A DNA stretch of 25,674 nucleotides from a virus, in IMG/VR virus record IMGVR_UViG_3300035665_000220, positions 1 to 25,674 of that record. The stretch is one strand, 5' to 3'. Below are positions 4,438-25,674 of this stretch, one piece after another. A model generated the notes under the pieces. The model did not search any database. It saw only the letters and a list, made by a program, of their open reading frames with translations, and had not been told where the DNA came from. How positions within the stretch are numbered: the first letter of the stretch is position 1; each line of letters starts with the position of its first letter. The position numbers were made by a program, and so were the translations under genes.

Positions 4438-7245
4438 TCAGACCTCAACGTATTGAGATAACGGACCAGAAACTTTTGTGTACGCACGCAGAAAATCAAC
4501 TATCTCTTGACCAACCTGAGTACCTGAAGCACCCATACCCGCATTGACAACAACCTGAACATTCACGCCCCCACCACCAAGTTTGTTGTTCGGCACAATG
4601 TTTCCACTCCCTGATGGAACAAACATTTCTGGACCACGTTCACCAACAATGTATGGTCGCCCAGACACTACAGGACCACCAAAAGCACGCCCAGGAGCAC
4701 CAGTGCGAGCCACACGCAACTCTCTACGGCTCGCACGCAACTCCTCCTCCGCTTGACGAAGATTGTCTGTAGCAGTCGCAGCACCCTCACGAGCATCACG
4801 AAGATCCCTTGAAGCAGCAGCCTGATTTTCTTCAGCCGTCACAATGTCTTTAGACAACTCCACATATTCTTCATCACCCTCACGAATACCCTCAACAATC
4901 TTGCGGTATTCCTCCTGTGCAGTAGTAAGATCCTCAACTGCCTTGGTTTGATTATAAATTGCATCCTCAACAGCAGTTTTAGCATCTCGAAGTTCCAGTT
5001 CAGCTTCAGCCAACTCATCAGGAGTGGCACCAGTAGCACGAACCTCAATAACCTTTCGTTCAGCCTCACCAACATCAAGCAGGGCGTCACGCAAACCAAA
5101 CTTTGCTGACACTAACGCCAACTCAGCACGACGCTTCTCAATCGGTGAAGCTTCGGGATCTTGCAATGTTTTGGCAAGAGCTTCTTCAGCCTCTTGAACA
5201 GCAAGAGTTGCTTCCTCTACATCAAGTTTTGATTTCTCTAATCCAAACTCAGCATTCGTCACTTCATTTGGGTCGGCTGCCTTAGCTCGTAATTCAGCCA
5301 ACTTTTTCTCTGCCTGAATGACTCGATCTTGAGCATCTTTGACCTCGGTATTGGCCTTGCTCAAATCTCTTTGGGCCATCGTCAAGGACCTTGAAGCGGC
5401 AGCACCTTTCTTGGACTCTAAACCAAAACCACGAATCGCTTGAGACAATTTTTCCTTTGCCTTGATAACCGACTCATTTGCTTGATCCAAACCTTTTTGA
5501 GCGTCCGTAACTCGCTCAATTGAGTTTCTTTCGCTAATTTGTGCAGAGGAGAGACTTCTTGTAGCAGAATCAAGTTTCTTTTTAGCATCAGCAATTTTGT
5601 CTGTTGCAGAAGCACCAGATTTCAGTGAGTCAGCCACCTTTTTTGCAATGTCATTGAATTGCTTTTCGTTCGTTATATAACGAGTTGAGGCGTCGGTGAC
5701 CTTGCCACGAGCCAGCGCACTTTGCAACAAAGCTTGTGAAGTTGTCCTAACAATAATTGGAGTCTGTTCAATCTCATCATTGAGACGACCTTGAGCAGCA
5801 ATCGTCAAATTGACCGAAGCACGATAACGCTCAATAGCATCTTTCAAGTCGTTGTAAGAACGACTTGATGGGTCAGTAACTTTGAGTTGAGCTTCAAGTG
5901 CGTCAACAATTTGAGCCGCTTTTGTTGGGTCACTATCTAAGAACTTTCGGAATGTTTTATCAAGCACTTCAATGTCAAGTTTGATGTCATCAGACAACAA
6001 CTTGAACTGTCGACCAAACGACTCAAACTTGACCACACCACCGATTGCACCAATCGGATCCAATTTTCTCAAATCCGCTTGTGCGACACCAATGAACTCT
6101 CGAATCGCATCCTCTGCTGTTTGCGTACCAGACTCAAAACCATTCAATGCGGCAGCAGTCTTTTTCATTTGATCTTCAAGACGTCGGGTCCCACCGGTGA
6201 CTTCATTTAGAACACTCGCTACTGCTTGAGCGGCCAACAAACCGGTCAAAGCTGAACCCAACCCTCGAACCGCTACGCCCGTACGAGTAATTTGACCTTC
6301 AGCATTTCGCATTGTGATGAGACCCCTGGTGAACTCATCATTCATCAGACGTTTCTGAAATGCGGCAATCTTCAAGTATCCGGCAAGTGCCAACACAGTT
6401 GTCGATAGAACACCCAAGACACCGCCAAGTACGCCAACTGCCGCACTGTTTCTGGCAGCAAAATCAGCAAATGTTCCCAAAACTTTGACGAATGTCTCAA
6501 ATACTGGTAGAAGTGCTTTGCCAATGTCTTCCTGTAGTTTGCCTAATGAATTTCGGAAAGCCTGCATTCGGCCTTCCGTGGTTTCACGCAAAGAAGCATT
6601 GAAGCCTTTGTAGGTTGAATTGAGAACCTCAACCAGAGCAGCAGACCGTTCAGACTCAGTTCCATTTTCAATCGTCGCTTTTGTGGCCTCATCAAGAACA
6701 AAACCAACACGAGTAAGCGCACCGAATTGGCCATTCAGGGCTTGAGCCAAGCCATTGGTCATTGCCTTGAAATCTTCCGCAGTAGCAGATGCACCTTTTT
6801 CGGCTACGACATAGTCAACGATTGCGGGCGTCAATCTGGCAATCGTGTCAGCCTGCAAATCAAAAGTTGCGAGTTGGGATTGCAAAATTGTGATATTGCC
6901 ACCAGCAACAACACCAACCTGCTCCAAGGCGTTTGCCTGATCGTTTAGTGCATCAACCTGAGATGCAGTCGCTTTACCAGTAGTCAGAAGGATTTGACGT
7001 AGACGTTGCTGCTGAGCCTCCTGCTCTGCTGCTGCTCTGACCGCCATGCCAGCACCAGCAACTAAACCACCAAAAACACCTGCTGCTGCAGTAGTGAGTA
7101 TCTTGAAGGTGGGAAGTAGTTGTTGAAGTTTGGCGTTCGTGATGCCGAATGTTTTTTCAGCTTCACCACGGACTGTCTGAAAATCCTTGATGAGTTGGGT
7201 TGGGTCAGCCAACAACTTGACAACGAATTGACGCTCAACGGCCAT
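4438..7245 (-). CDS. Tape measure protein
   Basis: This is 935 residues from the ATG at 7245; a TTG three codons earlier is possible. The start (MAVERQFVVKLLADPTQLI) is tape-measure-like. Two hydrophobic stretches occur (about 49-70 and 265-292). Residues about 480-850 are a long charged coiled coil containing three diverged tandem units of about 40 residues near 657, 694 and 737 (DPNEVTNAEFGLEKSKLDVE, DPEASPIEKRRAELALVSAK, ATPDELAEAELELRDAKTAV). The C-terminus bears the common GGPVVSGRPYIVGERGPEMF motif. It sets tail length and is thought to help DNA cross the membrane. At the usual 0.15 nm per residue it predicts a tail of about 140 nm. Confidence 0.93.
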   Translation of the reverse strand: MAVERQFVVKLLADPTQLIKDFQTVRGEAEKTFGITNAKLQQLLPTFKILTTAAAGVFGGLVAGAGMAVRAAAEQEAQQQRLRQILLTTGKATASQVDALNDQANALEQVGVVAGGNITILQSQLATFDLQADTIARLTPAIVDYVVAEKGASATAEDFKAMTNGLAQALNGQFGALTRVGFVLDEATKATIENGTESERSAALVEVLNSTYKGFNASLRETTEGRMQAFRNSLGKLQEDIGKALLPVFETFVKVLGTFADFAARNSAAVGVLGGVLGVLSTTVLALAGYLKIAAFQKRLMNDEFTRGLITMRNAEGQITRTGVAVRGLGSALTGLLAAQAVASVLNEVTGGTRRLEDQMKKTAAALNGFESGTQTAEDAIREFIGVAQADLRKLDPIGAIGGVVKFESFGRQFKLLSDDIKLDIEVLDKTFRKFLDSDPTKAAQIVDALEAQLKVTDPSSRSYNDLKDAIERYRASVNLTIAAQGRLNDEIEQTPIIVRTTSQALLQSALARGKVTDASTRYITNEKQFNDIAKKVADSLKSGASATDKIADAKKKLDSATRSLSSAQISERNSIERVTDAQKGLDQANESVIKAKEKLSQAIRGFGLESKKGAAASRSLTMAQRDLSKANTEVKDAQDRVIQAEKKLAELRAKAADPNEVTNAEFGLEKSKLDVEEATLAVQEAEEALAKTLQDPEASPIEKRRAELALVSAKFGLRDALLDVGEAERKVIEVRATGATPDELAEAELELRDAKTAVEDAIYNQTKAVEDLTTAQEEYRKIVEGIREGDEEYVELSKDIVTAEENQAAASRDLRDAREGAATATDNLRQAEEELRASRRELRVARTGAPGRAFGGPVVSGRPYIVGERGPEMFVPSGSGNIVPNNKLGGGGVNVQVVVNAGMGASGTQVGQEIVDFLRAYTKVSGPLSQYVEV

Positions 7246-7260
7246 AAGCGGCAATTCTAC

Positions 7261-7998
7261 TCAGTCAAGAACCCAGGACTTTCGCAGGTCACGAAACTCA
7301 CCCAACAATTTCGCTGCAATCTGAGGTTGAGTTAGTCCAGCAAATCGACTCAAATCCTGTGGTTCATTCCACCAAGATTCGGGGCGCCAATGCTCATTTC
7401 TGCTTTGACGAGTTTCTGCAGTTCTCGGCGAAGGATAAGTGCGAACTGTCGGAGGTACGAACAACTCTCCCAACTCGGCATCCAGAAACTCACCATGCCC
7501 ATATTTCCGAGACGACCAATCAAAGTGACCAACCGGATGCTGGGGGAGATAGAAGATTCGAGCAGGATCCTTAGTTGCTGGGTCGCCCACGATGTTGATT
7601 CGTTCATGCAACCGAGTCCATACTTCACCCCAACGATGCGCAGGAACCGGGTCTTTGAGTGGTAGAACCAAGTGCCAGTGTTCGTCATTTGGGCGATGTG
7701 ACCAAGTGGTGTAGGCAAACCATTCCAAACCATCCAAACGAGCGTGGTCAAACGATTCACCGTCCATGTCAACCACCAGACAGGTCACTGCTTCCACATT
7801 GTGATTCCCTCGTGTCGTGCCTGGTGCATAGATGACTGGTGACCACAACGCACGCTGATCCTTGCGTTTGGTTTCCTTGCGGATGCAAAGACGAGACCAC
7901 AACTGAATCCACGAACCTGCAAACGGCTTCGGGACTATAGATTTTACATAATCAAATCTGACAGCACGAACGTGGTCAAAACTGACTTCTGGGAACAT
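7261..7998 (-). CDS. Stand-alone archaeo-eukaryotic primase (PrimPol)-like protein
   Basis: This is 245 residues from the ATG at 7998, which has a perfect AAAAGGAG six bases upstream; a longer TTG-started frame is rejected. AEP-type motifs: motif I LVVDMDGES with metal-binding D77 and D79; motif II around YTTWSHRPNDEHWHLVLPL with H107/H109; motif III GDPATKDPARIFYLPQ with D139/D144. This is the pattern of replication-type primase-polymerases in phages and plasmids, here without a fused helicase. It would make primers or act as a polymerase on DNA. Its place between a gp10-like gene and the tape measure is unexpected. A relaxase-like or inactive relative cannot be excluded. Confidence 0.7.
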   Translation of the reverse strand: MFPEVSFDHVRAVRFDYVKSIVPKPFAGSWIQLWSRLCIRKETKRKDQRALWSPVIYAPGTTRGNHNVEAVTCLVVDMDGESFDHARLDGLEWFAYTTWSHRPNDEHWHLVLPLKDPVPAHRWGEVWTRLHERINIVGDPATKDPARIFYLPQHPVGHFDWSSRKYGHGEFLDAELGELFVPPTVRTYPSPRTAETRQSRNEHWRPESWWNEPQDLSRFAGLTQPQIAAKLLGEFRDLRKSWVLD

Positions 7999-8026
7999 GG
8001 CGGGCTCCTTTTGCTTCAGCGTAGTA

Positions 8027-8632
8027 TCAAGTTGCGCCTTTGGCAAGCTCTTTCAGAATGCGCTCAATTTCATTGGAGTATTCCTCAACAATGAATGATT
8101 TGCTATCCCGCACTGCCTGCCAAAAGAAATAGCCCTGACGGCCTCGATGACGCAAGAACTGTTGCGTCGTAGGTCGACGACGACCACCAAATTCAGCGCC
8201 GTAAAACACGTCACCCATTGTGACTTTACGAGTCAATCCAGGTCCGAATGCTTTACCTCTAGTTCGCTTGGTATTAGAACGAGATTTTGATGGATACAGT
8301 CTTTGATGGTCAAGTTTGATTGTTGGAATTCGATCACGTCGAGCACGCAAGGCATTCGCCACCACTTGTGCTTGTGATCGGCCTGAAGAGCCAGGACGTT
8401 GTGCTCCATGAGGAGGCTGTCCAGACGCATTCTGTTTCGCCTTGTCAACTACATGTTCAGCTATTTTTTCTGATGCTTTGCGCAGTGCCTTGGAAAATCC
8501 TTCTTGTGCTTGACTTGCATCACGCAAAAACTCCATAAGACCCGGTGCGGCAAATGCAACTTCACCTGCTCGACCTGCCGCAACTCGTGTATATGTGTAG
8601 CCCTGAGATTTTGGTCGTGGTATAAGTGCCAT
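8027..8632 (-). CDS. HK97 gp10-like virion/tail protein
   Basis: This is 201 residues from the ATG at 8632, one base after the chaperone-extension stop; no separate ribosome binding site is seen, so coupling is likely. An N-terminal helix (FSKALRKASEKIAEHVVDKAKQ) and the segment VFYGAEFGGRRRPTTQQF, followed by RHRGRQGYFFWQAVRD, match HK97 gp10-type neck/tail-completion proteins. The middle is basic. Such genes usually come before the tube protein; here the gene lies after the chaperones, an unusual order. Confidence 0.65.
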   Translation of the reverse strand: MALIPRPKSQGYTYTRVAAGRAGEVAFAAPGLMEFLRDASQAQEGFSKALRKASEKIAEHVVDKAKQNASGQPPHGAQRPGSSGRSQAQVVANALRARRDRIPTIKLDHQRLYPSKSRSNTKRTRGKAFGPGLTRKVTMGDVFYGAEFGGRRRPTTQQFLRHRGRQGYFFWQAVRDSKSFIVEEYSNEIERILKELAKGAT

Positions 8633-8633
8633 G

Positions 8634-9055
8634 TCAGCGAGTGTAGGGCGTGTTTGGGTTCTGTTTGATTGAACGCCAATACATGTATTTTTGCATTGTC
8701 CACAACATTCTTGGTGACTCAGCCAACAGTTGAGAAGGGGCGATGCCCGTCTCGCACGCCAAATAGGCGATCATCCAGTGGGCTGAGTCTTCTCCAAAGG
8801 GACAATCTTTCCCTCCCCAGCATCAAGACTGATATTGCTGACAGTCTCTAGCCATTGGTCAAAACTGGTTGTTGTCTTATTGCGTCGTTTTTCTGAATGC
8901 CAAGCCAGCCAGGCAAGATCACGGATTTTGATGTCCTGTTCAACTTTTGACATTGAGACACTGTGAGCTTCCTCGTATTTGACGAAGTCAACAAACTCAG
9001 CGACACATTCTCGTGATTCTTCATCAGGTCCGTAGACCCATAGAACCAATTTCAT
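8634..9055 (-). CDS. Tail assembly chaperone, -1 frameshifted (gpGT-like) fusion
   Basis: The -1 frame is open from the slippery site to a TGA at 8636-8634. It encodes 53 further residues beginning GEDSAHWMIAYLAC and continuing with GIAPSQLLAESPRMLWTM, which is the typical C-terminal chaperone (T) pattern in actinophages. It has no start codon or ribosome binding site of its own. The fused product would be 87 + 53 = 140 residues. The stop is one base before the next ATG (TGACATG). The sequence shows the frame, the slippery heptamer and the domain; the frameshift efficiency is unknown. Confidence 0.85.
8771..9055 (-). CDS. Tail assembly chaperone, short (gpG-like) form
   Basis: This is 94 residues from the ATG at 9055, with GGAGG six bases upstream. 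The middle (IKIRDLAWLAWHSEKRRNKT, then SFDQWLETV) is the recognisable gpG-like pattern of siphovirus tail chaperones. It sits between tube protein and tape measure, as in lambda and most actinophages. It is the zero-frame product; a fraction of ribosomes should shift at CCCTTTG (codons 86-87) to make the longer form. The chaperones bind the tape measure and help the tube polymerise. Confidence 0.85.
   Translation of the reverse strand: MKLVLWVYGPDEESRECVAEFVDFVKYEEAHSVSMSKVEQDIKIRDLAWLAWHSEKRRNKTTTSFDQWLETVSNISLDAGEGKIVPLEKTQPTG
8795..8801 (-). promoter_or_regulatory. Programmed -1 frameshift slippery site CCCTTTG
   Basis: Read on the minus strand in the chaperone frame, this is C CCT TTG, a perfect X XXY YYZ heptamer. 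P-site CCT re-pairs on CCC and A-site TTG on TTT. It lies 24-30 bases before the zero-frame stop. The -1 frame beyond it is open for 53 codons with a family-typical sequence. No strong downstream stem-loop was found by eye; only a short CGCC/GGCG stem lies about 35 bases on. Confidence 0.85.
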
Positions 9056-10725: not shown

Positions 10726-11391
10726 CTACTTGCCAACAAGCCACTGATTCCCAACAACCTCAACCTGAGCACCAACCGACCCAGCAAACTTGTAGACATC
10801 ATTCCTCACAGCAGGCCAATCCAAATCATCACCCATCAACAACCCGCCCTTCACCAAAAAATCCCACGCCGTTGACAACTCCAAAAACGTCTCATCCTCC
10901 TCATGAGCCGAATCCACATACACCACATCGGGCCGATAGTTCGACACCCGCTCCAACACATTCATCCCCACAATCCCCGTCGCAGGCAACGGAGTAATCA
11001 CATCCTCAAACCCGGCATCCTTCACGTTCGCCAAGAACCGTTGCCGAATCGTCGGAGCACCATTCACCAACCCAAGAAACCGCCACTTCCCAGACCGAAC
11101 CAAATCCTGCTCCCAAGCCCACATATTCACATCACCCGTGAACGGATCAACACACACAATGTCCAACTCACACCCAAGACGCTCAGCCACACGAGCCACC
11201 AACAACGCCGACCCACCCAACATCGACCCCACCTCAACCCAATACTGAGGCTGCCGCTCACCAATCACACGCTCAACCAACGCCTCCGAAAGATGCGTAT
11301 GCGGATACCCGTTATCCGACGGGCCAGCATCCGCATACACATCCTGCGAACCGAACAACACCCGACGAATCTCCTGACCGATCAGCCCCAT
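10726..11391 (-). CDS. Class I SAM-dependent methyltransferase
   Basis: This is 221 residues from the ATG at 11391, overlapping the previous gene by ten bases. Rossmann methyltransferase motifs: motif I YWVEVGSMLGGSALLVARV (50-68), an acidic strand end IVCVDPFTGD (79-87), motif IV-like DVVYVDSAHEEDETF (155-169), then FLVKGGLLMGDDLDWPAV. The pattern fits the Methyltransf_24/TylF-like group, many of which methylate sugars or small molecules. Last in the cassette after three glycosyltransferase-like genes, it most likely caps the glycan by O-methylation. A DNA methyltransferase is unlikely, since no DPPY-type motif is present. Confidence 0.85.
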   Translation of the reverse strand: MGLIGQEIRRVLFGSQDVYADAGPSDNGYPHTHLSEALVERVIGERQPQYWVEVGSMLGGSALLVARVAERLGCELDIVCVDPFTGDVNMWAWEQDLVRSGKWRFLGLVNGAPTIRQRFLANVKDAGFEDVITPLPATGIVGMNVLERVSNYRPDVVYVDSAHEEDETFLELSTAWDFLVKGGLLMGDDLDWPAVRNDVYKFAGSVGAQVEVVGNQWLVGK

Positions 11392-11903
11392 GTTCCCTTG
11401 AACTTTCTCAAATAGTCATTCTCCAACACCATGTTCCGACGCCCATGATGCTCCACAAACCCCACATTCCGAGAATCCCGAAACTCAGGAAACACCACCG
11501 GCACCACACCAGCCGCAGCCGCATAACCCCGAGTCCACTCCACCTCAGCCCGAATCGAATCCCGTTGCGTCACCGGCGAATACAACTCCACCCGACCCAA
11601 ATGCTCTCTCGTATAAATCCCCATAAACATTCCAAAAATACCGGGGTCATCAGTCACCGACACCGAACCCTCATGCTCAAACATTCGGTCAAAGAACGCC
11701 TGGTCTTTCACCACCACCGAATCATGCAGAAACAGAAACCGATCCAGTTGAGTGTTCTCATACAGCCACTTGATTTTCCCCAACTCCCACGTCCCACCCT
11801 GACGCAACACCAACACCTCACGCTCAATGCTTGCCAAACATTCAGCCAACCAAGCTTCACGCCCAGGAGTCGTGGCCACCACCACCGTCTCTTTCAATCC
11901 CAC
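11382..11903 (-). CDS. Small glycosyltransferase-like protein
   Basis: The frame is open from a TTG at 11933. A GTG at 11903 with GGAG five bases upstream, and a TTG at 11897 in a TTGA overlap with the previous stop, are more likely starts; about 173 residues from 11903. The N-terminal VVVATTPGREAWLAECLASI resembles the first strand and helix of GT-A enzymes. FLFLHDSVVVKD is a possible acidic metal site. The end (RRNMVLENDYLRKFKGTW) is conserved in style in phage glycan genes. The GT-A core is minimal, so catalytic competence is uncertain; it could be an accessory subunit. Confidence 0.7.
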   Translation of the reverse strand: MGLKETVVVATTPGREAWLAECLASIEREVLVLRQGGTWELGKIKWLYENTQLDRFLFLHDSVVVKDQAFFDRMFEHEGSVSVTDDPGIFGMFMGIYTREHLGRVELYSPVTQRDSIRAEVEWTRGYAAAAGVVPVVFPEFRDSRNVGFVEHHGRRNMVLENDYLRKFKGTWG

Positions 11904-12544
11904 CCCAACTCCAATCGTCGATTCAAGTCCCAATCCAACGGAACATCCTGCACCATACGCTCCTCAAACAACCTACGATTCGCATCAAACGTCGCCTGAT
12001 TCTTCTGCTGAAACTGAGCACTCGACTGCAACGTGCTGGAGTTCCGATGATAAATCGCAGCCGACGAACGCCCAATCTCTACACCCTTACGTTGCGCCCG
12101 AATCTCATAGTCATTGTCCTCAAAATACGCTGGATGAAACCCCTCATGAAATAAGCCAACTTTCTGCACCACACCAGCACCCAACCAGAAACACGACCAC
12201 GGCGGCTTCCCACCCAACACTAAATTGTTCGTCGACGCCAACCGAAACATGTCCTCAACACCGTTCGCACCGAACGCCACATCATGATTTACAATCAACC
12301 AACCCGACGCCTTGCACGTCGCCTTGATTCCCAGATTCCACGACGCAGCCACACCCAAATTCGTTGGCATCCGATAGTGAAATATGCGTTGCGCCTTATC
12401 AGTGAACGGCACCCACTTGGGATGATTCCCATTGTCAATCACCACCAGGTCACGAATACGGCCATCAAACGAAGCCAACATCGAATCCACTCGATGATGC
12501 TCCGTAAGCACCGGGACGACTACGACTGGGACAAGCGGCACCAC
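11894..12544 (-). CDS. GT-A (family 2, rhamnosyltransferase-like) glycosyltransferase
   Basis: This is 216 residues from a GTG with AAGGAG eight bases upstream, located inside the end of the GT4 gene. GT2 marks are VVVVPVLTEH, VVIDNGN, the NLGVAASWNLGI motif (62-73) typical of rhamnosyl/galactofuranosyl-type GT2 enzymes, a WLIVNHDVAFG acidic metal site (H87, D88), and FHPAYFEDNDYEIRAQRKG with the catalytic-base region ED-D. The C-terminus carries VYH-like AIYHRNSST. It is shorter than many GT2 proteins but has the complete GT-A core. It probably adds the second sugar in the same glycan as its operon neighbours. Confidence 0.86.
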   Translation of the reverse strand: MVPLVPVVVVPVLTEHHRVDSMLASFDGRIRDLVVIDNGNHPKWVPFTDKAQRIFHYRMPTNLGVAASWNLGIKATCKASGWLIVNHDVAFGANGVEDMFRLASTNNLVLGGKPPWSCFWLGAGVVQKVGLFHEGFHPAYFEDNDYEIRAQRKGVEIGRSSAAIYHRNSSTLQSSAQFQQKNQATFDANRRLFEERMVQDVPLDWDLNRRLELGWD

Positions 12545-13821
12545 TCAGCAATCTCCTTCATCGCCGGCTTCCAATGCGACTCAAACACAGCATCCGCCTC
12601 ATAACGCTTCGCAAAGTCCACAGCCTTCTTAGAACGGCCACGACCACGGGCATACGCCTGCTCCAACGCATCCAAAATGCTCGGCACCGAAGGCGTCAAA
12701 AACCACGACTTCTGAGCAGCATCCCAAAACGGCTGACCCTCCACAACCCAACCATCCCCAACCAACTCCGGCTGAGCCGTAAAGTTCGAGACGATAACGG
12801 GCGTACCACACGCCTGAGCCTCCACCACAGGGATACCGAAGCCCTCCCCCATGCTGGCCGCCAGAAGCACGTCAGCGCCACTGTAGAGGGCTGCCATAGC
12901 GTTCTGGGGCAAACCTAGACGATATAGGTAGGCGTCGGCATATTTGATGCGATGCGGCTCAATACCGCACATCTCAGCCAACTCCTTCAAGTTGATACCA
13001 CCAGCCGACCCCATCTCCTCAGAATGCATATACAACACCGCATCAGGATGCTTCTGGGCAAACATGCTGAACGCCATAAAGTTCTCAGCGAACGCCTTGC
13101 GTGGCGGATAGACACCCTTGTTCGCTGCGGTCATCATGACCACAAACTGATCCTCAGCAAACCCCATGATTTCACGGCCAGTAATTGACTTGCCACCCTG
13201 GTCTTTGATGCTTGGCGTCGGCTTGAACACCGACTCAATACCGTGAGGAACATACAGGCTGCGAATCCCTAACTGCTCCAACATGCGAGCACCGAACTGG
13301 CTCATCGCAATAGGCATCACATTCGGACGTTGACAAAACGCAGCAACCTCCGGCGGACACGGCTGATGATCCACCGGCACCCACGACGCAATATTCGGAA
13401 CCTTGTCCAAGTTCGGGGCCTTCAACACCCACACATCAAACAACGTCATCAGCAACTTCGGCAGATTTGTTGCCTGCGTCCACTCCATCCAATGCGCAAC
13501 GACCACATCGTCGCTATATGCACTCATTCCCCTCGGGTAGATTTTGATGCCGTTCCACGTCGACGTTGACCCTTCGAGCCCGTAGATTGCGTGGATTGCG
13601 ATTTCGTGCCCGTCTTTGATGAGCCTTTGGACCGCTTGCTGGGTTTGTTGGCCGTAGCCCGTTCCCGCCCACGGGGCGTTCGAGTACCAGAGGGCTCGGA
13701 CTGCGTCCGAGGATCTACGACTGACTCCTCTGGTAAGTGTGCTGCGCCCCGCTGCAAGAGCAGGATCGCCGTCGGGTCGGGTAAGTCCAATGGGACTCCC
13801 TTGATGATTATTCGCATTCAC
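12520..13821 (-). CDS. GT-B (family 4-like) glycosyltransferase
   Basis: This is 433 residues from the only conventional in-frame start, the GTG at 13821 (GAGGAG five bases upstream). The recognisable domain starts only at about residue 43 (ALWYSNAPWAGTGYGQQT). Then come SWVPVDHQP, YVPHGIESVF, a donor-site helix region TAANKGVYPPRKAF, and the GT4 E-x7-E signature GEGFGIPVVEAQACGTPVIV (E326, E334). It would transfer a hexose-like sugar from a nucleotide sugar. Residues 1-42 look like filler and coincide with another plausible ORF start four bases away, so the N-terminus is uncertain. It is the first gene of the glycan cassette and overlaps the next gene by 25 bases. Confidence 0.87.
   Translation of the reverse strand: MNANNHQGSPIGLTRPDGDPALAAGRSTLTRGVSRRSSDAVRALWYSNAPWAGTGYGQQTQQAVQRLIKDGHEIAIHAIYGLEGSTSTWNGIKIYPRGMSAYSDDVVVAHWMEWTQATNLPKLLMTLFDVWVLKAPNLDKVPNIASWVPVDHQPCPPEVAAFCQRPNVMPIAMSQFGARMLEQLGIRSLYVPHGIESVFKPTPSIKDQGGKSITGREIMGFAEDQFVVMMTAANKGVYPPRKAFAENFMAFSMFAQKHPDAVLYMHSEEMGSAGGINLKELAEMCGIEPHRIKYADAYLYRLGLPQNAMAALYSGADVLLAASMGEGFGIPVVEAQACGTPVIVSNFTAQPELVGDGWVVEGQPFWDAAQKSWFLTPSVPSILDALEQAYARGRGRSKKAVDFAKRYEADAVFESHWKPAMKEIAEWCRLSQS
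13524..13817 (-). CDS. Small basic protein ORF overlapping the GT4 gene in another frame
   Basis: This 97-codon ORF opens at the ATG at 13817, behind a good GAGAGGAG nine bases upstream. Its N-terminus (MRIIIKGVPLDLPDP, TAILLLQRGAAHLPEE) looks like a short folded phage protein. Its C-terminal half is Lys/Arg/Ser/Thr-rich, like the basic tails of small proteins that often follow capsid genes in actinophages. The whole ORF lies inside the glycosyltransferase frame. The first 41 codons overlap a glycosyltransferase segment with no recognisable domain; the rest overlaps conserved glycosyltransferase sequence. Either both frames are used, or this N-terminus is the ancestral gene now overrun. Real but unproven. 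Confidence 0.45.
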   Translation of the reverse strand: MRIIIKGVPLDLPDPTAILLLQRGAAHLPEESVVDPRTQSEPSGTRTPRGRERATANKPSKRSKGSSKTGTKSQSTQSTGSKGQRRRGTASKSTRGE

Positions 13822-17381: not shown

Positions 17382-18158
17382 CTAGCCGTGTGCGAACAGC
17401 CGTTCATCATATTCTACTGAAAGTCGAGCAACTTCAACTTGAATAAGTGCGTTGCGTTGACGCTGTGCAGTATGGGCTCCAATGTGCTGTCTGTAAAGCA
17501 GTTTTGGAATGTGATGACATTTCGTGTGCAGATAGGTGCGCAGGAACAGTTCGTAGTCGTCTGCAACACTCATCGCAGGGTTGTGTCCGCCGATTTGCCG
17601 GTACACGTCTGCACGCCAGGCACGAACATGATTTGGGGCCGAGACGATGTGGCGGACGGTGGTGGCGTTGAGTTCAGGGGCACGCATCACCCACACGCCA
17701 TGCTCATCGTTCCAGTAGTGCGAGCCGTAGCCAAACGCCCATCCTTCGGGATAGCGGCCTGATTCACCTGACGGCAATATCTCGCACCAATCCGAATACA
17801 CGAACCCGACGCTTGGGTCTCGGAACGCTGCCTCAATCTCGCTCAATGCGTCCGGTGTCAACTCATCGTCGTGATCCAGCTCGACCAAGATGTCGCCTTC
17901 TGCGACCATGAACCCGCGTCGCTTGACTTGACCAATCAACCCCGATGGCACATGACTATGGTGGGCGACGATCCGATACCGCTCATCGGAACAGAACCCG
18001 TACACCTGCCGCCACGTTTCATCGTTCGTCGAGTCATCCCAGACAACCCACTCCCAATCTTTATGCGATTGAGCCTTGAGACTTGCCCAGGTGCGAGCCA
18101 ACACAACTGGTGGCGTGTTGTATGTCGGTGTGATGACTGAGATCAACCGAGAACGCAT
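17382..18158 (-). CDS. GT-A (family 2-like) glycosyltransferase after the fibre gene
   Basis: From the ATG at 18158 this is 258 residues; an in-frame GTG at 18173 would add five. The Rossmann-like nucleotide-sugar half is clear: [10 protein letters not shown] at the N-terminus, WVVWDDST, and the metal-binding [12 protein letters not shown] (D95-H-D-D98). The acceptor half carries [13 protein letters not shown]. It would transfer a sugar from an NDP-sugar. The gene overlaps the collagen-like gene end by 16 bases, so the two are made together. The fibre or another virion protein is the likeliest acceptor, though host surface glycan is possible. It is remote from the second glycosyltransferase cluster at 11-13.8 kb. 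Confidence 0.88.
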
Positions 18159-20032
18159 ACTGGCGCAGCCCACTTCAACCCGGTCGCAGTAGATGAGTCA
18201 ACAGTGAGAACATGATTGTTCGTGCCACCAACTGCCAGTCGAACGTTGGTTGTGCTGAACGTCAACAAGTCACCTTTGCTTGTCAACAGCGTGGAGCCTT
18301 GTGGACCTTGTGGGCCTTGAGCACCCGTCGCTCCCGTTGCGCCAGTTGCGCCTTGCGGACCGACAGCACCCTGCGGACCTTGCGCACCTGTTGCGCCTTG
18401 TGCGCCTTGTGCCCCGACATCTCCAGCACGAGAAAAATCAATGACACAGCCGTTGTTATTTGCTGGAGCAGTTCCAGAAATGTACGTCACTGAAATCTTG
18501 CGGTAGCCGGTTGCTGAGGTAACACCAGTGACATTGAACGTCGCAACAGATGTTCCTGTCGTGCGACCTTGAATAACCAATGTTCCTTCAACAGTGTTTG
18601 TCGAATCATCCCAAGAATCAATAAATGCAGTTTGTGTAACACCATCACCATCAACCAGATCGATGAAGATTTGTGTTACTGAACCGATGGTCGCATTGTT
18701 GAATCGGAAATTTCCACTGCCTGGATCAGAATCAGTTGTCGTCGTGCTGAAGGTGTAGAACAATCCGCCTTTGGCACCTGTTGCACCAGTAGCGCCTTGT
18801 GCACCCTGTGCACCTTGAGCACCCGTTGCCCCAGTTGCACCCTGAGCACCGACAGCGCCTTGCGGGCCGACTGCGCCTTGTACACCTTGAGCACCAGTCG
18901 CTCCGGTTGCACCCTGAACACCAGTCGCCCCGGTTGCGCCTTGAGCACCGACAGCACCCTGCGAACCAACTGCACCTTGTGGACCGACAGCACCTTGAGC
19001 ACCCGTGGCACCAGTAGCACCTTGCGCACCAGTAGAGCCCTGCACACCTTGCGAACCGGTATCACCCTGCGGACCTTGAGCTCCCTGCGCTCCAGCAGCT
19101 CCCTGAGCGCCTTGAGGGCCTGTATCGCCCTGTGGTCCTACGGCACCCTGCGGACCAGCATCACCTTGCGGACCTTGCGCACCGACAGCGCCCTGAGCGC
19201 CCTGAGCACCCTGCGGTCCCGTATCGCCCTGCGGTCCAACATCACCTTGTGGACCTTGCGCACCGACAGCACCTTGAGTACCCTGCGGTCCCGTGTCGCC
19301 CTGCGGACCGACAGCGCCCTGCGCTCCCTGCGGACCAGCATCACCCTGCGCACCCTGCGGTCCGCTCGAACCTACGGCACCCTGCGAACCCTGAGCGCCC
19401 TGCGGTCCCACATCACCCTGTGGCCCCACATCACCTTGAGGTCCCTGTGATCCTTGCGATCCAGTAGCACCCTGAGCGCCCTGCGCACCTGCACCACCTT
19501 GCGGACCAACGTCACCCTGCGCACCTTGTGGTCCTTGTGATCCAGTCGCACCCTGAGCGCCCTGAGCGCCTGTTGCACCTTGAGCGCCTTGAGGACCAAT
19601 CGCACCCTGTGGACCAGGAACCGTACTGTCAGCACCTTGAGGACCTTGCGCACCTTGAGAACCGGTTGCACCAACAGCACCCTGAACACCAATCGGACCC
19701 TGCGAACCCTGCGCACCTTGAGAACCAGTTGCACCAACAGCGCCCTGCGCCCCAACATCACCCTGAGCACCTTGAGGACCCTGAGCACCTTGAACACCAG
19801 TTGCACCAACAGCACCCTGCGCACCATGCGCACCTTGAGCACCTTGTGGTCCCTGCGAACCTTGAACACCAGTCGGACCTTGAGCACCTTGTGGCCCAAT
19901 AGAACCAACAGAACCAACAACCGTCACCGACTGCGCCTGCTCCTGAACCGTCACATTGACATCATCCTCAGCAACAACAACCGTGTTGTTTGATTCGACC
20001 ACCGTAACGGCTGTCGTGGTGTCCTGCGCCAT
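18143..20032 (-). CDS. Collagen-like fibre protein with two Gly-X-Y blocks
   Basis: This 629-residue protein has a non-collagenous head (about residues 1-42, Val/Thr-rich). A long Gly-X-Y block of roughly 125 triplets follows (about 43-421, mostly [15 protein letters not shown]). An interrupting globular beta-rich domain spans about 422-537, a second short Gly-X-Y block about 538-579, and a C-terminal cap about 580-629 with [20 protein letters not shown]. Collagen-like phage proteins form trimeric fibres or head/tail decorations. The globular insert could nucleate trimerisation. The Gly-X-Y block makes long imperfect DNA repeats, so assembly errors in repeat number are possible. The overlapping downstream gene is a glycosyltransferase, which makes this protein one candidate substrate. 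Confidence 0.88.
18422..18770 (-). other. Globular interruption between the collagen-like blocks
   Basis: This stretch encodes roughly 115 residues without Gly-X-Y periodicity (about residues 422-537 of the fibre). It is rich in Thr, Asp and beta-forming residues, with segments such as [18 protein letters not shown] and [13 protein letters not shown] similar domain inside phage collagen-like or tail proteins can act as a trimerisation or host-contact head. I did not recognise the family. Confidence 0.55.
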
Positions 20033-23883: not shown

Positions 23884-23985
23884 CGGTAGGGCGCAACCTA
23901 CCGTGCGTCCATTGCGCACGGCATGGGTCATTTTCGGCTACCCCCGCCCAGATTTTGGGGCACCCCCGTTGATGCCGGGGTGGGG
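23884..23985. other. Structured HNH-TerS spacer, candidate cos region
   Basis: The roughly 116-bp non-coding gap between the HNH and TerS genes holds two overlapping perfect hairpins. The first has arms CGGTAGG/CCTACCG at 23884-23903. The second has arms CCGTGCG/CGCACGG at 23901-23921. They share three bases, so both cannot form fully at once. Further right, ACCCCCG occurs as a direct repeat at 23940 and 23962 within a run of C- and G-tracts. A structured spacer between an HNH gene and TerS is where a cos/TerS-binding site would be expected. No genome end is visible, so this is inference. Confidence 0.4.
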
Positions 23986-24288
23986 TCAGCGTCGTTGGTC
24001 TCGTGCGCCTCGACTGGAGTTGCAACTTCGATGGGCTGCTGCGAGGACGTCGGACTCGGGGCCGAAGACGTGGTCGGCTGTCCAGGGGTCGTCGGGGCGT
24101 GGGCCTTCGCCGCAGATCCAGCAGTGGGTTGCGGTGTCTCTGACTAGGCGGGCTCGTTCTGGGTAGTCGCCTCGGTAGTGAGGTCGTGAGGCGTTGCGGA
24201 TGGCTTGTTGTTTGCCGGTGCAGGTTGGGCACCTGGTGGGTTGGGTGGTGAGTCGTCGGCAGTTGATGCAGGGGCGACGAATGGGCAT
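23986..24288 (-). CDS. HNH endonuclease, packaging-associated
   Basis: This 100-residue protein has two zinc knuckles and an HNH core. An N-terminal pair C7xxC10 and C20xxC23 is followed by C56xxC59, then D72-H73 and H86xxC89-N90. The ADHV and HRSCN motifs are the family's beta-beta-alpha metal site. HNH proteins next to terminase genes are known to help terminase cut concatemeric DNA at cos (the HK97 gp74 group), and this one directly precedes TerS, so a packaging role is more likely than a homing role. The ATG at 24288 has no clear Shine-Dalgarno sequence, so a leaderless or weakly initiated mRNA is possible. A homing-type HNH cannot be excluded. Confidence 0.85.
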   Translation of the reverse strand: MPIRRPCINCRRLTTQPTRCPTCTGKQQAIRNASRPHYRGDYPERARLVRDTATHCWICGEGPRPDDPWTADHVFGPESDVLAAAHRSCNSSRGARDQRR

Positions 24289-24343
24289 AGAGCTTGTATT
24301 GAAGTTAGTGCGTTTGTTCTTTATTTGTGTGGGGACGAGGGAT

Positions 24344-24418: not shown

Positions 24419-24439
24419 ATGTCCCCGATTCGGGGACAT
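24419..24439. promoter_or_regulatory. Perfect 10-bp palindrome at the end of the helicase gene
   Basis: Arms ATGTCCCCGA and TCGGGGACAT flank a single central T. The element touches the stop codon of the ATPase gene. As RNA it would fold into a GC-rich hairpin, but no U-tract follows, so a classical intrinsic terminator is not clearly supported. The TGTCCCC/GGGGACA core recurs several more times in the next 110 bp, which favours a protein-binding operator or an iteron-like site. Role unproven. Confidence 0.55.
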
Positions 24440-25674
24440 CATTCGAGGGGGTCTCGGAGCCTGTTTTGGGCGATGGCTCGCAGGGCCTTGGACCATTTGG
24501 AGTTCTTGGCTTTGATGCCTCGTGCCCTGGCTTCGTCTCTGAACTTGAGGGTGTCTTCCTGTTTCATGCCGGGCTTCAATTCGGGGAAGGCTGTGAGGAT
24601 GCGTCGGGCGAGGTCGTAGGTGTCTTGGGTGAAGGTTTCTTGGGTTTCTTTGAGTCGGATGGGGTTGTAGTCGTCTTCGAGTTGTTCTTCGACGAGTTCT
24701 ATTTCGTTGGGTGCCCAGCCGATGCGTGAGAAGATGCGGGTGAGTTTGATGGTGTGACCGTCTCGTTGGAGGTGGTAGACGATGTCGACGTCGTCGTTTT
24801 TGGCGCTGGATCCTCGTTGGCCTTGGGTTTTGCCTTTGTCTTTGCCTGCGTGGTCGGTGCGGAGGAGGGCGATGCCTGCGGCTTTGAGGGCGAGTCCTGT
24901 GGTGCGTGCGAATTCTCTGTAGGTGTCGGCTGAGTTTTCTTCGCCTTGTACGGCTCGTCCGGTGGTGTCGATGACGACGACCTGGGCTTGGGTGAGCTCT
25001 ACGAGTTTCATGACGGCGGCTGCGCCTTCGTAGGTGTTGAGTGGGGGGAGTGAGGGGATGAGGGCGTAGTGGAGGTGGGTGAGGTTGTCTTCTCGGGTGT
25101 AGCCGAGGTTGTCGAGGCGTTCGAGGAGGTCGGAGGAGGTCATTTCGTAGTCGAGGTAGAGGACGTGGGTTGGGGGTTGGGCTGGGCGTCCGAAGATGGG
25201 TTTGCCTGTGGCGAGGGCTGCGGTGCAGGCGAGGGCGATGTAGCTTTTGCCTTCTTTGCTGACGGCGAAGAGGGCGGTTTGTCGACCTCGGGCGATGAGT
25301 GGGTAGGCGATCCAGTCTTCGGCTTTGTGGTCTTGGTTCCAGAAGTCTTGCCAGTTGATGAGTTGTGAGAGGAGTTCGTCGGGTGTGCTGGTGGTGGTGT
25401 TGGGGTTGGTGTTGAGGTATTGGGCTGCTGCTTGTTTCCAGGAGCCTTGGTGGTGGCGTTGGGCGTGGTAGCCGAATTTGCTGTAGCCGCCTTCGGGGAC
25501 GGGTGCGTTGCTGCTGAAGACGATGAGGGCGTCGTTGTTGTTGTGGTTGAGGCTGGCGGAGATGCCGGTGGTTTTGCCTGGTCGTCGCCAGTATTCGGTG
25601 CCGTCTTGGCCTTGGTAGACGTAGGTCCAGCCGTCTTGGGTGAGGATGGTGTTCCAGTGGTGTTGGTTGTTGTA
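24439..25674 (-). CDS. AAA/RecA-like replicative helicase-type ATPase (5' end outside window)
   Basis: The frame stays open to the right edge, so the protein is N-terminally truncated here; 411 residues are visible. Visible residues 1-70 resemble the module that follows primase-polymerase domains in phage replication proteins (YWRRPGK, then a conserved GYSKFGYHA). A Walker A-like loop (SKEGKS) lies near visible residues 139-144. A Walker B strand (VLYLDYE) lies near 171-177. A second acidic strand (VVVIDTTG) and a RecA-like RTDHAGKDKG...RGSSAKNDD sensor segment follow. By family this is a RepA/DnaB-like (AAA_25 type) ATPase that would unwind DNA at the phage replication fork. Internal ATG codons exist (for example at 25143), but the Walker A and B motifs lie upstream of that one, so it cannot be the real start. 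Codons here end mostly in C or A, unlike those of the terminase. An N-terminal primase domain may lie outside the window. Confidence 0.85.
   Translation of the reverse strand, partial: YNNQHHWNTILTQDGWTYVYQGQDGTEYWRRPGKTTGISASLNHNNNDALIVFSSNAPVPEGGYSKFGYHAQRHHQGSWKQAAAQYLNTNPNTTTSTPDELLSQLINWQDFWNQDHKAEDWIAYPLIARGRQTALFAVSKEGKSYIALACTAALATGKPIFGRPAQPPTHVLYLDYEMTSSDLLERLDNLGYTREDNLTHLHYALIPSLPPLNTYEGAAAVMKLVELTQAQVVVIDTTGRAVQGEENSADTYREFARTTGLALKAAGIALLRTDHAGKDKGKTQGQRGSSAKNDDVDIVYHLQRDGHTIKLTRIFSRIGWAPNEIELVEEQLEDDYNPIRLKETQETFTQDTYDLARRILTAFPELKPGMKQEDTLKFRDEARARGIKAKNSKWSKALRAIAQNRLRDPLE

Follow-up and report, generated by a model that had tools for sequence, protein, structure and literature searches.

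A predicted stand-alone AEP-superfamily protein, the second AEP of its phages, encoded beside the tape measure gene of small freshwater actinophages

Why should a phage keep a primase-polymerase-like gene among its tail genes? The question is raised by a 245-residue protein encoded in the window, that is, the whole stretch of 25,674 bases analysed here (IMG/VR virus record IMGVR_UViG_3300035665_000220). A reading of the sequence alone had located this stand-alone, AEP-type protein between a gp10-like gene and the tape measure gene, and the arrangement is borne out by the following features, all on the minus strand:

7261..7998, minus: coding sequence of the predicted stand-alone AEP (P0001), 245 residues, ATG start; from profiles, conservation and dN/dS
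7453..7965, minus: predicted AEP catalytic domain, residues 12-182, with D77, D79, H109, D139, D144 and R147; from AlphaFold, Foldseek and invariant residues
7264..7380, minus: conserved C-terminal tail, residues 207-245; from the alignment and AlphaFold
8005..8010, minus: Shine-Dalgarno sequence AAGGAG of the AEP gene, 6 nt 5' of the ATG and kept in relatives
8018..8023, minus: TANNNT element TACGCT, candidate -10 box of an AEP promoter; comparative evidence only
8027..8632, minus: upstream neighbour, HK97-gp10-like protein; weak profile matches
4438..7245, minus: downstream neighbour, tape measure protein; the ATG at 7245 is preferred over the TTG at 7254
7254..7259, minus: TAGAAT, candidate -10 box of the tape measure gene, retained in loci without the AEP
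24439..25674, minus: C-terminal part of a PrimPol-AAA_25 replicase, cut by the window end; from profile matches and relatives

The tape measure protein is recognized by a PHROG tape-measure match (1.8e-9), and the gp10-like protein by weak matches to Pfam HK97-gp10-like (E 0.038) and to a PHROG connector (E 0.036). The gp10-like gene follows the chaperone genes. The tail assembly chaperone (8634-9055, minus) carries a conserved CCCTTTG slip heptamer at 8795-8801, and its -1 frame runs on for about 50 conserved residues (DSAHWMIAYLACETGIAPSQLL...) to the gp10-like start, making a canonical frameshift pair. A collagen-like protein of 629 residues with GxQGxQ repeats (18143-20032, minus) is encoded downstream of the portal gene and is absent from this place in several relatives. 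Several relatives' contigs (G002, G003, G004, G009) begin or end at the junction of the HNH and small terminase genes (23900-24300), a pattern compatible with a cos-type end of the genome at this point. An Rfam scan of the window returned nothing.

The open reading frame at 7998-7261 is not a chance one, since relatives were found at 45 IMG/VR loci in a first scan and amount to 75 distinct proteins of 37-100% identity with low dN/dS (median 0.22 over the whole gene). The strong ribosome binding site credited to the gene is indeed there, AAGGAG standing 6 nt before the ATG and being conserved in relatives. The motifs quoted from the protein are present and correctly numbered: VDMDGES (D77, D79), WHLVLPL (H109) and GDPATKDPARIFYLP (D139, D144).

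Profile searches with the protein gave no Pfam and no NCBIfam match, and no Pfam model, PF09250 Prim-Pol included, matched any of 17 aligned members at E up to 5. AEP-containing PHROG profiles do match, as the sequence-only reading would have it: PHROG 9765 'DNA primase' at 9.5e-13 and PHROG 256 'DNA helicase' at 4.3e-6, each over the N-terminal part of a long profile, and both in 17/17 aligned relatives (best 3e-15). A sequence search of the PDB gave no meaningful match. Two AlphaFold models, built from 17- and 42-sequence alignments, reached mean pLDDT values of 79.6 and 84.7, with a core above 90. The closest PDB match of both by Foldseek is the AEP domain of the cyanophage S-2L PrimPol (2.4e-5 and 4.8e-5), followed by the LigD polymerase domain, PolDom (E 4e-3 to 1e-2); weaker fold matches include RepB', CAPP and archaeal primase, and TM-scores against solved AEP structures are modest (0.3-0.5). 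The predicted fold is thus AEP-like. Viral models matched at E <= 1e-3 in 57 cases, most of the named ones being AEP-helicases or primases; the top match is to a 234-residue phage protein of no characterised function (46% identity). No similarity to a tail protein was found. A reading of H107-W-H109 as the mark of an HUH endonuclease was discarded: H107 is not invariant (A in the relative L045), and the fold matches of this kind are weak (pMV158 RepB, E 1.4) against those to AEPs. Profiles and predicted fold together confirm the assignment of the product of 7998-7261 as a stand-alone protein of the AEP superfamily. Helicase, zinc and PriCT domains are all lacking from it, and beyond the predicted AEP domain there are only a linker and about 40 residues.

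The residues expected at an AEP active site are almost perfectly kept. D77, H109, D139, D144, R147, Y57 and R63 are invariant in 75/75 distinct proteins and D79 is found in 74; the sole replacement of D79, by E, occurs in L029:1524-2252. AEP motifs have been defined as hhhDhD/E (I), sxH (II) and hD/E (III) (PMC5862659). CLVVDMD at residues 73-79 conforms to the first. H109 would provide the histidine of the second, although the position two residues before it is H107, which is not small, in 74/75 proteins (A in L045). For the third, D139 and D144 are both invariant, yet they are preceded by G and K rather than by a hydrophobic residue, so that motifs II and III, judged by sequence, appear to match the textbook definitions only in part. 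The S-2L PrimPol uses E85, D87, H118, D146 and R157 (PMC8065100), and residue order and spacing here (D-x-D, H 30 residues later, D, R) run parallel to it; from spacing alone, Y57 may correspond to Y63, the steric gate of S-2L. Selection is uneven along the gene, with a median dN/dS of 0.108 for residues 67-155, 0.61 for residues 156-206 and 0.25 for the C-terminal tail. The core is therefore under purifying selection (dN/dS about 0.11), and the predicted catalytic face is the most constrained part of the protein. The acidic and histidine residues singled out beforehand (D77, D79, H109, D139/D144) are those under the strongest constraint across the 75 proteins.

The linker at residues 185-205 is modelled with low confidence and predicted to be disordered. 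It leads to a tail in which the motif E.WW..P.D..RF.G.T precedes a helix (224-243). No variation is seen at W210 or G221, and even L045, at about 40% overall identity, retains the motif. The natural reading of this tail would be that of a docking peptide. A beta-clamp-binding peptide in QDLSRF was considered and set aside, Q214 being present in only 58/75 proteins.

The helicase-type ATPase noticed at the other end of the window does exist (AAA_25, E 5.9e-6). It is not a plain helicase, however: the right-end ORF runs off the window at its 5' end, its Prim-Pol domain would lie beyond the window, and in close relatives the complete replicase is a protein of 612-616 residues that fuses a PF09250 Prim-Pol domain (1.9e-39) to AAA_25. 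PrimPol-AAA_25 was found in 7/18 contigs searched, that is, in 7/7 of those that reach the locus; the other long contigs read (G003, G004, G006, G011, G016) end before it. Contigs with the tail-block AEP also carry PrimPol-AAA_25, which makes the tail-block protein the second AEP of these phages. Reading through the larger ORFs in near-complete genomes, we noticed no polymerase of family A, B or C (profile scans covered ten proteins of one genome). The similarity between the two AEPs is marginal in pairwise comparison (E 0.004) and insignificant between profiles; as far as their sequences tell, they are not close relatives, and an origin by recent duplication of the phages' own PrimPol is not supported.

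The same placement recurs in related phages. Among 85 loci with the gene, readable flanks give the order gp10-like, AEP, tape measure, mostly preceded by the major tail protein and the chaperone, L045 being the exception. With the gp10-like and major tail genes as seeds instead, a survey found the AEP in 76/77 distinct slots, a count that rests on the best 80 loci per scan and undersamples more distant relatives. AEPs at 37-41% identity still occupy the slot between the gp10-like and tape measure genes. The gene is near-core in this phage group. A WhiB gene (1e-19) points to an actinobacterial host, and the carriers form a group of small freshwater (lake-water) actinophages. No relatives were found in bacterial genomes by scans of genome contigs, and plasmid matches are weak (four records).

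There are two departures from this pattern. In one lineage (L262/L264/L283-L286) the gp10-like stop is followed, after about 40 nt, by the tape measure ATG, with no AEP between them. A tree of three neighbouring genes nests this lineage within the clade that carries the AEP (local supports 0.97 and 0.99), which makes loss or recombination likelier than an ancestral empty site. In the L045 contig, a 42%-identical relative lies outside any tail block and adjoins a tyrosine integrase (L045:3859-6077), which argues against an obligate tail role, with the proviso that this is a single unverified contig. It also carries an HTH_17 protein, a small terminase and a capsid gene, and is possibly a small prophage or satellite.

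The outgroup, the Pontimonas phage phiPsal1, has no AEP at the tail-block slot. This nearest named phage found shares the gene order of the stretch that runs from the terminase to the tape measure, in which glycosyltransferase and methyltransferase genes separate the capsid from the neck; in the window these lie at 10726-13821 (minus), between the capsid and the head-tail adaptor, and their content varies in relatives. In phiPsal1, however, the gene before the tape measure overlaps the tape measure start, and the replication genes are annotated as RepO-like. An unrelated-looking protein stands there in place of the gp10-like one; phiPsal1 gene 17 was tried as its homologue and rejected, similarity not being detectable.

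Most leaders between the gp10-like stop and the AEP start measure 20-49 nt. A TANNNT element lies 18-27 nt (once 11) before the AEP ATG, and its three middle bases differ from locus to locus; in the window it is TACGCT, about 19 nt before the start. TAGAAT stands 8 nt before the tape measure ATG both with and without the AEP. TANNNT is the usual actinobacterial -10 pattern, so that separate promoters are plausible on this comparative evidence; an ordinary sigma-70 promoter scan did not call the element in the AEP leader. The tape measure and gp10-like (8632) starts each have a TANNNT element 7-8 nt ahead of them, which would fit leaderless mRNAs. The late expression first attributed to the AEP is left unproven by the conserved leader (TANNNT and Shine-Dalgarno sequence) that the gene has of its own.

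What might such a protein do? The absence of a helicase or PriCT domain and the strong selection beside a full replicase are best explained by an accessory role, to which the presence of PrimPol-AAA_25 in every contig that reaches its locus also points. The protein would be an apparently intact nucleotidyltransferase acting on phage DNA beside the replicative PrimPol-AAA_25. D77, D79 and either D139 or D144 would act with H109 and R147 as the binding site for metal and NTP; on single-stranded DNA the enzyme would synthesize or lengthen short primers, and might re-prime or fill gaps during fast replication and concatemer processing. Its C-terminal tail could recruit it to a partner, for example a single-stranded-DNA-binding protein or a helicase. 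With a leader of its own, the gene would owe its site to entry there in an ancestor of the clade rather than to a tail function. Family, fold, conserved residues, selection, placement and the presence of a second AEP in these genomes are what the analysis shows; activity, substrate, partner and timing are inferred. We consider the chances about even that the protein is an accessory primase or gap-filling polymerase recruited in this way. The partial fit of motifs II and III and the modest TM-scores count against it. The strict retention at one tail-block site hints at a link to tail genes or to timing that an accessory enzyme does not need.

A function in counter-defence or host takeover, through an unusual product, be it nucleic acid or nucleotide, or through repair of DNA cut by host defences, would suit an accessory gene with its own short leader that was lost in one lineage. 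We nevertheless regard it as unlikely: near-universality in the clade is unlike the behaviour of typical, variable counter-defence genes, no neighbour is related to defence, and PADLOC profiles, a library with few counter-defence genes, gave no match at E up to 1. The anti-defence idea, already put forward as speculation, thus gained no support.

The gene adjoins that of the tape measure in nearly all loci, and phages often package and inject the products of genes that lie near the late ones, an argument made for polyvalent proteins (PMC5512222). The AEP could accordingly be produced along with the tail, enter the virion next to the tape measure protein and reach the cell with the DNA, priming or filling the incoming genome before phage expression. 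If this were true, DNA synthesis on incoming DNA could start before any phage gene is expressed. Gene position is, however, the sole argument for it, the L045 relative sits beside an integrase, the AEP-less lineage retains the same tail genes, and PrimPol in polyvalent proteins has been reported only for conjugative elements (PMC5512222); we hold virion delivery to be distinctly unlikely.

Assembly factors are often encoded between gp10-like and tape measure genes, and the helical C-terminal tail is conserved, as might be expected had the fold been exapted for tail assembly or chaperoning with enzyme activity dispensable. This is improbable, since the residues of active-site type are more constrained than the tail, the usual chaperone pair with its canonical -1 frameshift site lies upstream, and the lineage without the AEP has the same tail genes. 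As for a tail chaperone proper, the frameshift pair belongs to the gene at 8634-9055 and not to the AEP slot. Finally, that the protein is the main replicative primase, moved away from the helicase and working in trans with the AAA_25 protein, followed from a window that displays a helicase without a visible primase, and is largely refuted and most improbable now that the AAA_25 protein is seen to have its own Prim-Pol domain in relatives, AEP-bearing contigs among them.

Several known systems share part of this picture. The phage primase-helicase or 'virulence-associated E' AEPs (PHROG 9765 and 256; S-2L PrimPol, NrS-1-like) have the profile, the order D-x-D/H/D...R and the fold in common with the tail-block AEP, but they are long, multidomain proteins of replication modules with PriCT and/or helicase domains, whereas here a single domain with a short tail is encoded in the tail block. 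PF09250 Prim-Pol belongs to the same superfamily and occurs in the same genomes, while the tail-block protein has no Pfam match. The LigD polymerase domain shares the AEP fold at 14-17% identity; unlike LigD, the tail-block AEP has no ligase or nuclease domain, and no Ku gene was noticed nearby. A SaPI-type primase, ORF003 of Staphylococcus phage PT1028, is a stand-alone AEP-like protein of similar size (289 residues); its tblastn match is marginal (21.9% identity, E 9e-3) and takes in 80% of the query. ORF003 directly precedes a large ORF, which we take to be of the kind used by SaPIs as Rep; the tail-block AEP, in contrast, lies at a distance from any helicase, and its phage has another PrimPol. 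SaPI primases are AEPs and are not essential (PMC7581432), and so offer a precedent for a non-essential helper AEP.

The AEPs of mobile elements have been well surveyed, and nearly all primase-bearing dsDNA viruses also encode a helicase (PMC5862659); solo primase domains in phages have been mentioned (PMC5512222). We found no description in the open-access literature of a second AEP fixed in the tail block. Phage AEPs are normally fused to a helicase or adjoin one, while here a second stand-alone AEP, no close relative of the first, occupies a fixed tail-block site. The family is compact, consists of a single domain with a distinct tail suggestive of docking, and is covered by no Pfam model. 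It offers a testable case for accessory or non-replicative roles of AEPs, such as end repair, re-priming or delivery with the genome.
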